Below the pieces are notes generated by a model. That model was not told the origin of the DNA, did not search any database, and was given only the letters and a program-made list of their open reading frames with translations. A program made the position numbers and the translations under genes. Below, piece after piece: positions 2,515 to 10,205 of a stretch of DNA of 24,990 nt. The DNA comes from a virus, in the IMG/VR virus record IMGVR_UViG_3300023171_000038, positions 1 to 24,990 of that record. The stretch is one strand, 5' to 3'. Position 1 is the first letter of the stretch. Each line of letters starts with the position of its first letter.

Positions 2515-3870
2515 ATGAAAGAAGTTTATTTTTATACCCCCACAATATTATCTTATCTAGATTTAGTTTCAATGGGTGGAAGTGACAAAGCAGATGATGA
2601 TTCTACAATAGGTAAATATAATTCTGGGCTAAAATTTAGCATGGCTTTAGCATTACAGAATGATGTTGAAATGTTGATTAGAACCTATGATGAGGAATTT
2701 TCAGACAATCACCAACGTCAGCGTGAAACTTCTTACTATATAGACACATACACAGAGGCTTGCGAGCAAACAGATAAAGTAAAGAACTTAATTAAGTTGA
2801 CTAAATCAGTAGTTGCTCAAAACTTTCATTCAGGTGTTTGTGATGATTATGGCGGAGGAGAATATCCAGAAGAAGAGTTAAAAACAGGCTTTTCTACTAA
2901 AATGGGCGTAGACTGGAGTCTTTGGATGTTACTTAGAGAGATTTATTCAAATATGGTAGATGAAAATGGATATTATTATGAAGATGTTTGTAAGCATGTA
3001 AACTTAGGAACTGTTATTAAATTAGGTTTTAAAGAAGATTCAGAATTTGCCGAGATTTGGAATAACCGTCATTTGTACATCAATGAAAAAGAGCCTTTAT
3101 TTAAAATTTCCGATTCTTTAGATATCCTGGAAAATGAGGAGAAATATTTAAGAATTTACAAACAAAATATTTTAGTTTACAAGGATGAGAATGTACCTAG
3201 TAGATATGCTTTTAATGTCAAATTTGGAAACATAGATGAACGAAGAATACTTTCAGATATTTACACTGTAGAAGGTGAGATTGTTTCTGCTATAATGAGA
3301 ACTAAAAATGAAGAATTTCTAAGACAAATTATATCTGCTGACTTCCAAACTTTGGATAAAGAGTTTTTAGCTAATAGGAGCCCTTACTATTCTCCAAGTG
3401 AATTAATACATGACATCGCTTTTGAAATTTATGAAGCTAATGGCGAAGTTAAATCTTATGAGTGGATTATTGATGGAATTAAAAAGCTTAAAAACTGTAG
3501 AATTGGTGGTAAGAAGATAACCAATGTTGGAGATAGTTTGTGGCAATACAGTAATACAGTAACTGTTGAGTCTGTTCCTGAGCCATGTTCTGAACCTGCT
3601 GTTGAGATTGAAGGAGAGATTCTTATTAGTCCTTTTTCCGCGGAAATAAAAAAATATTACAACTTCGAATTAGATGTAGAAGTAACTAAAGCTAAATTAA
3701 AAGGAAGTAAATGTATTGCTGATAAATATAATAATTGTTTGATTATAGATAACGATTTTAATATAGAAACTGATTTTCCAGAATTAATCGTGCAATATCT
3801 CGATCTTACGGTGAAAGAAAATGTAATTATAGCCATGAGTGAATATATAACTAAACTACTAAAAAAGTAA
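2515..3870 (+). CDS. Phage protein, 451 aa, possible permuted GHKL-type ATPase
   Basis: Long unknown protein. Residues 31-40 (TIGKYNSGLK) resemble the glycine-rich GxxGxGxK loop of GHKL (histidine kinase/Hsp90/MutL) ATPases. Residues 134-150 (WSLWMLLREIYSNMVDE) resemble their N-box (E142, N146, D149). The glycine loop comes before the N-box, the reverse of the usual order, which suggests a circular permutation. I recall phage proteins with this FGSGLKYA...WMALRE layout, but I cannot confirm the family. The C-terminal 150 residues look like a separate domain. It is the first gene after the 2486 terminator and is followed 1 nt later by the MazG-like gene. A role in DNA handling or host takeover is only a guess. 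Confidence 0.7.
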   Translation: MKEVYFYTPTILSYLDLVSMGGSDKADDDSTIGKYNSGLKFSMALALQNDVEMLIRTYDEEFSDNHQRQRETSYYIDTYTEACEQTDKVKNLIKLTKSVVAQNFHSGVCDDYGGGEYPEEELKTGFSTKMGVDWSLWMLLREIYSNMVDENGYYYEDVCKHVNLGTVIKLGFKEDSEFAEIWNNRHLYINEKEPLFKISDSLDILENEEKYLRIYKQNILVYKDENVPSRYAFNVKFGNIDERRILSDIYTVEGEIVSAIMRTKNEEFLRQIISADFQTLDKEFLANRSPYYSPSELIHDIAFEIYEANGEVKSYEWIIDGIKKLKNCRIGGKKITNVGDSLWQYSNTVTVESVPEPCSEPAVEIEGEILISPFSAEIKKYYNFELDVEVTKAKLKGSKCIADKYNNCLIIDNDFNIETDFPELIVQYLDLTVKENVIIAMSEYITKLLKK

Positions 3871-6753: not shown

Positions 6754-7887
6754 ATGCAAATAGAGAAATTTAAAGATTTAACAGTAAAAGCATTTGCAGA
6801 AATAAAACAATACCAATTAGGAGAAAAAGGTATAATTAAAACTGGCCAAAGTTATTTTGACGACTTATTTCCTGTAGTAAATGGCTCTATAATAATTTTT
6901 TCGGCGGGCTCAGGTATTGGAAAATCCCATAAACTAGCTCAAATTACTGATAATATATTAAATACAGCAATAAACCCAACAGCAGGTAATTTTGCAGTTT
7001 TGCACATTTCTTTGGAGATGAGAGTGATGAGTTTAGTCTTAAGGGGAATGTCTAAAAAGATTAAGTCAAAATCTAAAAAAGATATTTTATTACAAGAATT
7101 TACAGAGGAAGAAAGACAACAAGCTAATGAGTATTTTTTAAGTCTGCAAGATGAAAGGGTTTTTATTTCGCAAGTTCCTACAACACCTAAGAAGTTTTAT
7201 GAGGGATGTGTTACTTTTCTAGATGCCAATAAAGACAAGGACAGTGTAATTATTACTGTTGACCACCTTGCCCTAATATCTGGAGATAATGGAGAACCTA
7301 GAAATTCTATTATTGAAAAGTTTATAGAAAGAGTAAATGATTTAAAAATGTTATATGAAAATGTTGTGTTCATTCTTCTTTCTCAAACTAACTCAGATAT
7401 GCAAAAAAGAGCACAAGATAAAAACATAATGTCTCAACCAACAGCTAGTGATATTTATTATTCTCAATTTACATTTCAAGTCGCTGATTATGTAGCTATT
7501 ATGATTAGCCCAGGACGTTTTGGTATTAAAGAATATTCAAAAATAACTCCTGATCGTTATCCTAATCTAGAGAAATATTTCTTAGAAGAAGATAAAAATG
7601 GTAGGGTTTCGTTGGAAACTTATGGAGTAAATTATGTCCATTTACTTAAGTGTCGTGAGGCAGAAGGGCTTTATCTAGATATTTACGCAGAAGAAATGAA
7701 TATACCTAATGTAGATAAAGAAAGAGAGATTAGGAAAAAAGAAAATATGCCTACATTTAGTTCTACTATACCATCATTCAATACTGTTGATTTCACTGTA
7801 GAGAAGCCGTTGCAAGTAGCTCCTAATTTTGATTTAGCTTCTGCTTTTGATGTTCCTGATACTAAGAAAGCTGAAGACCCTTTTTAA
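6754..7887 (+). CDS. DnaB-type replicative helicase (RecA-like core only)
   Basis: 377-aa ATPase matching the C-terminal motor domain of DnaB/gp4 helicases. Walker A is AGSGIGKS (K57, S58), the catalytic-glutamate strand is HISLEM (E88), Walker B is VIITVDHL (D170), and the sensor glutamine is in LLSQTNSDMQKRA (Q211). Residues 1-40 carry the linker-type KTGQSYFDDLFP seen before the core. The usual DnaB N-terminal domain and any primase domain are missing, so priming must come from elsewhere, possibly the protein at 23785. The C-terminal 60 residues are low-complexity and proline-containing and may bind a partner. The ring helicase would unwind DNA ahead of the polymerase at 16059. Confidence 0.88.
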   Translation: MQIEKFKDLTVKAFAEIKQYQLGEKGIIKTGQSYFDDLFPVVNGSIIIFSAGSGIGKSHKLAQITDNILNTAINPTAGNFAVLHISLEMRVMSLVLRGMSKKIKSKSKKDILLQEFTEEERQQANEYFLSLQDERVFISQVPTTPKKFYEGCVTFLDANKDKDSVIITVDHLALISGDNGEPRNSIIEKFIERVNDLKMLYENVVFILLSQTNSDMQKRAQDKNIMSQPTASDIYYSQFTFQVADYVAIMISPGRFGIKEYSKITPDRYPNLEKYFLEEDKNGRVSLETYGVNYVHLLKCREAEGLYLDIYAEEMNIPNVDKEREIRKKENMPTFSSTIPSFNTVDFTVEKPLQVAPNFDLASAFDVPDTKKAEDPF

Positions 7888-7923: not shown

Positions 7924-8124
7924 ATGTACACACTAACAAACGAAGAACTAGAACAGTTTCTAATAGAAACAGATTCATTTTATGATTGTCCAGATGAAGA
8001 ATCTAAACAAAGAATGAGGGATTCATATAGAAAGGTAGAAGCAGAAAGTAATGAACAGATAGCTGAAGCGGGCGGTTTTACAAAATGGTATGAGAGTGGG
8101 AGAGGAAGAGTATTACACTTTTAA
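7924..8124 (+). CDS. Small acidic protein, 66 aa
   Basis: Last gene before the long gene-free stretch. Starts MYTLTNEELEQFLIETD after an A-rich leader. Acidic N-terminal half with helices, then a Gly/Arg tail (GGFTKWYESGRGRVLHF). No family recognised. Its stop is followed by a hairpin-rich 3' UTR and a strong terminator. Confidence 0.7.
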   Translation: MYTLTNEELEQFLIETDSFYDCPDEESKQRMRDSYRKVEAESNEQIAEAGGFTKWYESGRGRVLHF

Positions 8125-8249: not shown

Positions 8250-8290
8250 AAACAGAATGAGGAGAAATCTTTGTTCTGTTTTTTATTTTC
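8250..8290 (+). terminator. Strong GNRA-capped terminator
   Basis: AAACAGAATGAGGA (8250-8263) pairs over 14 bp (three G-U) with TCTTTGTTCTGTTT (8268-8281), closed by a GAAA tetraloop and followed by TTTTATTTTC. It ends the helicase transcription unit and insulates the non-coding region downstream. Confidence 0.88.
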
Positions 8291-8318
8291 TGTTGTTTTT
8301 ATTTCTTTTTTCGCGCCG

Positions 8319-8333: not shown

Positions 8334-8360
8334 TTAAGGCTTACTCTAAAATTAAGTTGT

Positions 8361-8391
8361 TTGGTGAATGGGTATTATTTTTGTATATTTA
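8361..8391 (+). promoter_or_regulatory. Promoter-like site (TTG-N20-TATATTTA)
   Basis: TTG at 8361-8363 and TATATTTA at 8384-8391 are exactly 20 nt apart, the spacing of the clear promoters in this window. The last -7 base is A rather than G, as at 21583-21590. No protein start follows, so it would drive the structured non-coding region beginning near 8398. Confidence 0.5.
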
Positions 8392-9170
8392 CAGCTTTAA
8401 AATACGAAATACAAAGATTTTATCCATCACCTCTAAAATCGTCACAATAAATAAGATAACCTCTTACCAAAAAGGACTAATAGAAGGATGCGTGATGGCT
8501 CTAACTGTTAGTTTTTTGCGTTAGGAGGTTTTTGTATTTTTAAATAGGCGGTACAGAAGTGTATCACATCTTCAAGGTTGGTTTAGGAAAGCCATTAATA
8601 AAGTCTATATAAGGAATTGTGTTATATAGGGGACGGAGAAGAATAGACGTTTGGGTTGAATATATGTTAGTTGAAAGAGGTATTTCTCAATAAGATTTTT
8701 AAAATCGACAGAACTAAATGAAAATTGTCCCCAACAGCCGAAAAATTGGCTTATATATAAAGTTGCGGGCATTGTAAGACGTATCATTTTGAAAAGGGTA
8801 GATGCGCAGTGTGTAGGTGTAGGAAGAAATTCTGACGAACGGCGTTGCGGAAATTATGAGTTTAAATCGCCAATACAATCAAATTTTCACAAAAGGAGAA
8901 GTATTGGTCAGGAGATGTAAAAATCTTCAAAGGGGTTTCCTATGCCTCATAATTACTTAATCAATCTGTATTATTCTTTACTTCTTGTGCTTTACTTTTC
9001 TCGGCGGAATAATTAAAATAACTGTTTTTAACATTCTTTGTCTACAGAGTTTCCGCCGCTATAATCAATAGCACATATTTATTTAACAGTTTTGCCAATC
9101 TTCGCGCGTAAAAGAGTAAAGAACAGTTGAAAAAAGAAACGGAAGTTAATATAAAGTCACTGTTAGAAGC
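8392..9170 (+). ncRNA. Candidate large structured non-coding RNA, unknown class
   Basis: No ATG-started reading frame of credible length lies on the plus strand between 8125 and 9257. Many helices can be traced by eye: 8424-8430/8492-8498 (CCATCAC/GTGATGG); hairpin 8579-8594; 8622-8634 (TTATATAGGGGAC) pairing in two stacked parts with 8727-8732 (GTCCCC) and 8754-8760 (TATATAA), with hairpin 8737-8750 inserted between the 3' parts; hairpin 8694-8706; 8764-8772/8802-8808 with a 2-nt bulge; a four-way junction closed by 8852-8860/8946-8954; 9002-9009/9051-9058 (CGGCGGAA/TTCCGCCG); 9084-9090/9159-9165. Parts are visibly richer in G and C than the coding DNA around them. A promoter-like site precedes it and an insulating terminator lies before that. 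Ends are uncertain. I recognise no tRNA, tmRNA, RNase P or intron core. Phages do carry large ornate RNAs such as GOLLD and ROOL, and this may be a comparable class. Confidence 0.5.
8424..8537 (+). promoter_or_regulatory. Pseudoknot/switch-like element with U-run at the 5' end of the non-coding region
   Basis: Helix A: CCATCAC (8424-8430) with GTGATGG (8492-8498). Helix B: AACCTCTTA (8458-8466) with 8522-8530 (TAGGAGGTT, one G-U), followed by TTTGTATTTTT like an attenuator. Helix C: CTAAC (8501-8505) with GTTAG (8520-8524) competes with helix B for 8522-8524. A and B cross, giving a pseudoknot; B and C are mutually exclusive, as in riboswitch or attenuator folds. Confidence 0.35.
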
Positions 9171-9208
9171 CCTAATTATACCCAATTTAAAAATAATCAA
9201 CAAAAAGC

Positions 9209-9239
9209 TTGTAGGAATCAAAAGTAATACTTAGATTTG
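9209..9239 (+). promoter_or_regulatory. Bacteroidota-type promoter (TTG-N20-TAGATTTG)
   Basis: TTG at 9209-9211 inside AAAAAGCTTGT and TAGATTTG at 9232-9239, spaced 20 nt. The AAAAGCTTGT block is shared with the promoter at 1414. The PP-loop gene starts 19 nt after the -7 box. Confidence 0.82.
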
Positions 9240-9257
9240 CTGAAATAAAACTAATAA

Positions 9258-10205
9258 ATGGAAACAATAGAAGAAAAACAAAAGTGGACTTTAGATCAAA
9301 AGATATTTCATTTCTTTGAAACACTTGATTTATTTTATCATAAAATGGAAGGTAAAGTTTACATAGGTTTTTCTGGCGGAAAAGATAGTACAGTAATGCA
9401 CACACTTTGCGATAAGTGGACTGATATGATGGGCTATCCTAGAATACAGTTAGTTTTCAATAATACAACTAATGAGTATGCAGATATATTAACATTTGTA
9501 AAAGGATATGGAGATAGAGTTACTTGGTTAAGACCTAAAATGACTTTTGCACAATCATTAGAAGTTAATGGGTTTCCTTTAGTAAGTAAAGAACAAGCAC
9601 AAAGAATTAGCGAAGCGAAACACACTAAAAGTGATAAACTTAGAAATATTAGAATTTTCGGCACAAAAAGAACTTCAAAAGAAACTAAAAGAGAGTATGT
9701 ATCAGGTAAGATATCTGAAAAGTGGATGTACTTAGTTTATGAAGATGTGGAAATAACTTCTAAGTGTTGTGATATTTTAAAGAAAGCTCCAGTTAAAAAA
9801 TTCGAAAAAGAGACAGGATTAAGCCCTATTATTGGAGTAATGGCTTCTGAATCATCATTGAGAAAACAGCAATATAATAAAACAGGAACTTGTAATGTAT
9901 ATGGAGTACGTAATATGTGCAAACCATTATCAATATTTACAGAAGAAGATATTTGGGCTATTATAGATAAATTTAACATTGAAATTTGTCCAATCTATTA
10001 CGATATGGTTATTGACGGTGAGATAGTTAAAGGAGAAGAAAGAACTGGATGTGCTTATTGTGCGTTTGGAATACAATATGAAGATCCTGAAAATAATAAA
10101 TTCCACAGGCTGGCCAAAAGAGAACCGAAACGGTTTTTATCTTTTATGGATAAATTAGGTTTCAGAAGAGCGTTATCATTTTTAAATATTAAATTACCAG
10201 AATAA
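9258..10205 (+). CDS. PAPS-reductase-like PP-loop protein
   Basis: 315-aa member of the phosphoadenosine phosphosulfate reductase/adenine nucleotide alpha-hydrolase family. The PP-loop SGGKDS is at residues 39-44. Family features follow: CC at 170-171 (SKCCDILKKAP), the ES(S)LR turn near 198-202, C221-K-P-L-S-I-F-T-x-x-D-I-W, and the C-terminal GCAYCAFG (C265, C268). The cysteines resemble a metal or Fe-S site as in DndC-type relatives. In phages these proteins are common but rarely tested; proposed roles are sulfur metabolism or nucleic-acid thiolation/modification. It has its own promoter and a 1-nt overlap with the next gene, so the two probably work together. No ParB-like IbrB partner is seen. 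Confidence 0.85.
   Translation: METIEEKQKWTLDQKIFHFFETLDLFYHKMEGKVYIGFSGGKDSTVMHTLCDKWTDMMGYPRIQLVFNNTTNEYADILTFVKGYGDRVTWLRPKMTFAQSLEVNGFPLVSKEQAQRISEAKHTKSDKLRNIRIFGTKRTSKETKREYVSGKISEKWMYLVYEDVEITSKCCDILKKAPVKKFEKETGLSPIIGVMASESSLRKQQYNKTGTCNVYGVRNMCKPLSIFTEEDIWAIIDKFNIEICPIYYDMVIDGEIVKGEERTGCAYCAFGIQYEDPENNKFHRLAKREPKRFLSFMDKLGFRRALSFLNIKLPE

Follow-up and report, generated by a model that had tools for sequence, protein, structure and literature searches.

The window, i.e. the whole stretch of DNA analysed, is the 24,990-base virus record IMGVR_UViG_3300023171_000038. It carries a DnaB helicase gene (6754-7887), the protein of which is 38% identical to those of the Cellulophaga phages phi17:2 and phi4:1, both filed as Lightbulbvirus. 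The small ORF at 7924-8124 is followed by 1133 nt that hold no convincing ORF, before a PAPS-reductase-like gene starts at 9258; this agrees with the non-coding gap of about 1.1 kb described in an earlier sequence-only reading. No tRNA was found in the window. A search of the gap against Rfam 15 gave no family at gathering score and only chance-level matches at E<=5, and BLAST of the gap against phages gave no match. Elsewhere in the window, positions 2515-3870 encode a 451-aa protein without a Pfam family, whose weak PHROG matches (phrog_8203 and phrog_6077) are to entries of unknown function. The gap is organized as follows:

8250-8291, + strand: intrinsic terminator insulating the dnaB unit (14-bp stem at 8250-8281 plus T tail)
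8360-8391, + strand: Bacteroidota-type promoter, exact match to TTTG-N20-TATATTTA
about 8396-8535, + strand: RNA1, with the same architecture in six diverged alleles
about 8545-8960, + strand: conserved structured core of RNA2, with relatives in 15 records
8961-9190, + strand: conserved 3' region, seen in the alignment, with a hairpin CGGCGGAA/UUCCGCCG (9002-9009 with 9051-9058)
9209-9239, + strand: next promoter, TTG-N20-TAGATTTG, before the PAPS-reductase-like gene

The strong terminator and the two flanking promoters had all been proposed from the letters of the window, and all three held up on comparison with other phages. The terminator stem is the sole one found (0.7 expected in shuffles), and the terminator is retained in L002, L003, L013, L019 and L021. 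The single match of the upstream promoter is not above chance by itself (0.43 expected); its weight comes from its conservation in all relatives with the complete arrangement and in L003, which carry different RNA downstream. The wider element of the second, promoter-like sequence recurs in relatives. Copies partly identical to this element (window 9185-9262) occur in the genome of L020 and in several of the related phages, making it a repeated phage promoter. In L019 (L047; contig 3300023181_000035), which has only the terminator among the gap elements, this conserved terminator is followed by a promoter and a gene that are unrelated. The stretch from the terminator to the next promoter thus acts like a site at which accessory modules are exchanged.

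A search of IMG/VR identified four more phages with the complete arrangement, namely: L002, L013, L020 and L021. Three of the complete-arrangement records are 141-143 kb long. In a further relative, L003, RNA2 is replaced by a 274-aa ORF behind RNA1; this ORF (L003 7118-7942) has no Pfam or PHROG family and starts about 10 nt past the terminator-like hairpin of RNA1. The sliding identity between the window and L013 is 92-100% up to about 8285 and past about 8916, and about 42-62% across 8400-8915. Compared to L002, the window is 41-64% identical across RNA1 and 95-100% identical across most of RNA2, while L020 and L021 combine a window-like RNA1 with a third RNA2 allele. Since the combinations of RNA1 and RNA2 alleles differ among relatives, the two are separately exchangeable modules; each also occurs without the other. 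Strongly diverged RNA alleles between near-identical flanks suggest conflict, either with host defence or between phages, or exchange; alternatively, the diversity in the lake phages could reflect neutral exchange with unsampled phages. Such allele swapping in near-identical genomes would offer a rare view of non-coding RNA under diversifying selection or frequent exchange.

RNA1 is about 140 nt long. It consists of a hairpin and a nested terminator-like hairpin, whose loops pair with each other:

8416-8440, + strand: hairpin
8424-8430 with 8492-8498, + strand: kissing pair
8458-8466 with 8522-8530 (outer) and 8475-8483 with 8505-8512 (inner), + strand: nested terminator-like hairpin, followed by a U run

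A TATATTTR promoter element is found in all six RNA1 alleles, together with a hairpin of the form GAUUU..AAAUC and the large terminator-like hairpin. The alleles also keep the kissing pairing with different sequences, namely: CCAUCAC/GUGAUGG (window), CCUUCAC/GUGAAGG (L020), UUCGUAG/CUACGAA (L013), GUAACGG/CCGUUAC (L002), GCAGG/CCUGC (L003) and CUCUCACC/GGUGAGAG (L044). Each loop pairs best with its own partner, at a mean duplex energy of -12.0 kcal/mol, whereas foreign partners give -6.3 kcal/mol; of the 720 permutations of partners, none but the true assignment attains the observed sum (1/720). A complementary pair at the spacing of the window's own was found in 0 of 100 window shuffles. L044, a more distant 142-kb relative of the L004 type, carries the RNA1 unit elsewhere in its genome, and its unconstrained fold prefers the loop-loop pairing itself. 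Its RNA1 is followed by about 750 nt more of non-coding sequence with long inverted repeats (1350-2268 for the whole), perhaps a third RNA module; RNA2 was not found in L044 with the covariance model R1 described below (E 1.7).

RNA2 is more widely distributed. BLAST of the L020 allele gave an intergenic match (75% over 79 nt, E 0.01) in cr118_1, a crAss-like phage of the human gut (Crassvirales, Suoliviridae). An exact scan of IMG/VR for the motif AGAAGUCGGGU - N - GUCCCCGAUAGC then returned 11 stretches, nine of them new. Together with the five lake-type phages (window, L002, L013, L020 and L021) and cr118_1, these nine make up 15 phage records, with about eight diverged sequence types and a core of roughly 270-415 nt (about 270 nt in cr118_1). 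The new members are L049, L051 and L054, which are phages with a terminase module; L052; and a gut-type group (L048, L050, L053, L055 and L056) encoding GroES/GroEL-like proteins, as named by eye. L050 has a second, diverged copy of RNA2 7.4 kb away. The RNA2 relatives have predicted promoters of their own. No new members came from BLAST of L048, L049 and L052 against phages or of L048 against plasmids. The strict P3 pattern is absent from phi17:2, phi4:1, phi14:2, crAss001, DAC15, csAssE-Sib and five other cr genomes, and the R1 scores on these crAss-like and Cellulophaga genomes are no more than weak. A looser motif, GTAAAA-N6-AAAGGGG-N-TTC, also in a version for the genome collection, led beyond the known relatives to unrelated contexts only, and the sequence matched by window 9014-9041 in G007 and G010 is in a protein-coding setting.

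The helices and motifs of RNA2, with window coordinates, are as follows:

8569-8573 with 8638-8642 (span 8569-8642), + strand: P2, supported by permutation
about 8577-8637, + strand: allele-specific insertion inside P2, in which a helix proposed earlier begins
8651-8655 with 8730-8734 (span 8651-8734), + strand: P3, supported by alignment covariation and RNAalifold
8667-8672 with 8712-8717, + strand: P3.1, inner hairpin within P3, supported by permutation
8748-8755 with 8855-8862 (span 8748-8862), + strand: PO, enclosing PA and PB/PB2, supported by permutation
8762-8767 with 8843-8848, + strand: PA, supported by permutation, alignment covariation and RNAalifold
8770-8811, + strand: PB/PB2 (PB hand-picked)
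8815-8842, + strand: motif GGUGUA..ACGAACGG, within PO
8870-8876 with 8901-8907, + strand: PE hairpin
8911-8916 with 8923-8928, + strand: P6 hairpin, followed by an AGGGG motif (region 8870-8940)

Partner permutations, with strand windows fixed from sequence motifs, gave 149/40320 for P2, 6/40320 for P3.1, 1/720 for PA, 10/720 for PO and 2/5040 for P6, the last with identical P6 in the window and L013. P1, PB, PC and PE rest on hand-picked strands, and the PA entry of the second L050 copy (L050b) in the strand table, which was out of register, is disregarded. The hairpin of the 3' region shows a C-G to U-A change in L013. A closing helix GGCGGU/AUCGCC, from the start of RNA2 to the UUAAAUCGCC motif, was rejected, as L013 does not keep it. 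Independent folds of cr118_1, L049, L050b and L052 have many helices in common; the fold of cr118_1 is much more stable than its shuffles (z -5.1), whereas for the other three the gain is modest (z -1.2 to -2.0). The window RNA likewise has just a modest advantage over shuffles in folding energy (z -2.47 for 8396-8990 and -1.59 for 8396-9190, vs. +0.28 for the reverse strand).

A covariance model (R1) was built on eight sequences, P3 and PA being the only helices it encodes. R1 finds the held-out L048 group (48 bits, 1e-8) and L052 (42 bits, 2e-7), where it should be noted that L048 and L052 had been retrieved by the exact P3 motif, such that P3 conservation and part of these scores reflect selection. 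It also finds the held-out second copy L050b (22 bits, 0.0075), and scores the window, from which it was partly built, at 129 bits. In the R1 alignment, which is fitted to the model and has PA of L048 and L050b off the best register, 90.8% of cells pair, and the covariation score of P3 and PA is 0.574 compared to 0.197 in shuffles (0/500), falling to 0.10 or below with partners slid. RNAalifold, run independently, arrives at the same two helices. The window has both the motif pair around P3 and the covarying PA that mark the RNA2 family.

No start-to-stop ORF is common to the alleles, and no protein homologue was found across the same bases. The Rfam search of those RNA2 members that were searched gave no match. 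Taken together, homologues, shared architecture, covariation, lack of a conserved ORF, variable genome position and several alleles are established at the level of sequence comparison, and the gap almost certainly holds a real structured RNA family. The sequence-only reading had proposed a large new structured non-coding RNA outside GOLLD, ROOL and any other Rfam class. The 15 records, the covariation among relatives (by both permutation and alignment), the absence of an Rfam match and the lack of a conserved protein agree with this proposal; what did not stand is the single unit, as the two modules are swapped independently of each other and either can occur alone. Neither did the 13-bp helix with a hairpin that had been considered most persuasive. 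It can be read in the window as described, but its 5' strand lies in an insertion of P2 found only in the window and L002 and absent in all diverged alleles, and its 3' halves overlap, and compete with, the conserved P3 and PO.

With regard to function, we consider the gap to be a non-coding transcription unit of two modules, RNA1 and RNA2, the latter representing in the window a new family of structured RNAs from Bacteroidota-type phages. The unit would be transcribed from the promoter at 8360-8391 during infection. No gene neighbours RNA2 in all members. The RNA lies beside dnaB in the window, at divergent junctions in cr118_1 and L052, ahead of the terminase module in L051 and L054, and near the GroES/GroEL-like genes in the L048 group. 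The second copy (L050/L088) is located among opposite-strand ORFs, with no convincing same-strand ORF downstream for kilobases. The lack of a common neighbour, the varied genome places and this second copy favour action in trans, and RNA2 probably acts in this way, as RNA. A putative chaperonin gene is found within a few kb of RNA2 in cr118_1 (L043), as are the GroES/GroEL-like genes in the L048 group; the two phage groups are unrelated, and this may be a coincidence.

The strongest rival is a cis-acting leader, in which the RNA stays on RNA polymerase and enables terminator read-through into the operon, as in HK022 put, with RNA1 as an attenuator. RNA2 opens gene units in cr118_1 and L052 and precedes the terminase module in L051 and L054, while RNA1 ends in a terminator-like hairpin that is directly followed by an ORF in L003. 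Such a leader would always be followed by a co-oriented gene, which is not the case for the second copy in L050; moreover, a separate promoter follows the unit in the window, and the downstream genes differ between phages. We therefore regard the cis-acting leader as unlikely.

The short motifs GAAGU, GGUGNA, ACGNACGG, UUAANAUCGC and AGGGGA are near-invariant across very different phages, suggesting recognition of a conserved component; they may bind a macromolecule common to the hosts. The diverged alleles in otherwise near-identical phages suggest conflict with host defence or between phages, and the fast allele swapping may reflect an arms race or phage-phage specificity. The trans pattern, the conserved motifs and the allele replacement together favour a trans-acting RNA for host takeover or counter-defence. 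That the RNA serves such a role is plausible, if short of probable; as an overall explanation, a two-module unit whose RNA2 acts in trans in this manner is the one we lean towards.

Among the other alternatives, RNA multimers with kissing loops between copies, in the manner of GOLLD and ROOL, would fit a phage RNA that is large and ornate and whose kissing pair covaries, as the known ones use conserved kissing loops between copies (PMC12286853). Against this stand the absence of Rfam similarity, the RNA2 core of only about 270 nt in cr118_1 and a window without tRNA; furthermore, the kissing pair belongs to RNA1, is absent from many members and may form within one molecule. Such multimers are thus quite improbable. 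Still less probable is a replication origin or primer RNA adjoining the helicase gene. In the window and its relatives, the RNA does come immediately after the dnaB unit, but RNA2 does not adjoin replication genes in other phages, and in a 143-kb relative the GC skew turns at about 52 and 124 kb with the RNA at 105 kb, a weak argument as skew follows the coding strand. In L051 and L054 the RNA precedes the terminase module, which would suit a packaging RNA working with the terminase motor, as phi29 pRNA does, but in the window's phages the RNA adjoins dnaB rather than structural genes, and no consistent linkage to terminase is seen, making this very improbable. Finally, a decaying, recombining intergenic region without functional RNA, as the high divergence inside the gap and the modest folding energy might suggest, is hardly credible given covariation across distant phages and motifs conserved in 15 records.

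A more specific form of the trans-acting reading is speculative: RNA2 might be a new class of trans-acting RNA in distant Bacteroidota phages including Crassvirales, with RNA1 as an allele-specific kissing element whose loops have co-diversified for self/non-self recognition among phages or for evading an RNA-sensing defence. A family common to Lightbulbvirus-like, crAss-like gut and other gut phages suggests a shared target in hosts whose takeover by phages is poorly understood, and cultivable members can be sought with the help of the alignment and model.

Several known RNAs bear comparison with this family. HK022 put and similar antitermination RNAs are structured RNAs that open phage transcription units, and RNA2 likewise stands at the start of gene units in several phages; it is longer, however, and one copy lacks a convincing downstream gene. 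The pRNA of phi29 is a phage-encoded structured RNA with loop-loop pairing, features that are found here as well, whereas no Rfam model is matched and the linkage to packaging is inconsistent (terminase only in the L049/L051/L054 group, dnaB in the window). GOLLD is a large phage and prophage non-coding RNA that has kissing loops and combines a conserved 3' part with a 5' part that varies (PMC12286853), and the present RNA resembles it in this. Unlike RNA2, GOLLD is often longer than 800 nt and near tRNAs; its Rfam covariance model was not matched, and the proximity to tRNA, which is frequent and not universal, was not observed in the window. ROOL is similarly an ornate phage and prophage RNA with kissing loops and without a known protein partner; RNA2 differs in its conserved motifs and does not match the ROOL covariance model. 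Few orphan large RNAs are known from phages, and the RNA2 motifs occur in none of those in Rfam; a literature search for the motif gave no relevant paper. Candidate structured RNAs from the human microbiome include Bacteroidetes candidates near phage domains (PMC8040213), and a gut member of RNA2 could be among them. While orphan structured phage RNAs are already known as a kind from GOLLD and ROOL (PMC12286853), RNA2 appears to be new as a family, some gut members of which may coincide with those candidates (PMC8040213).
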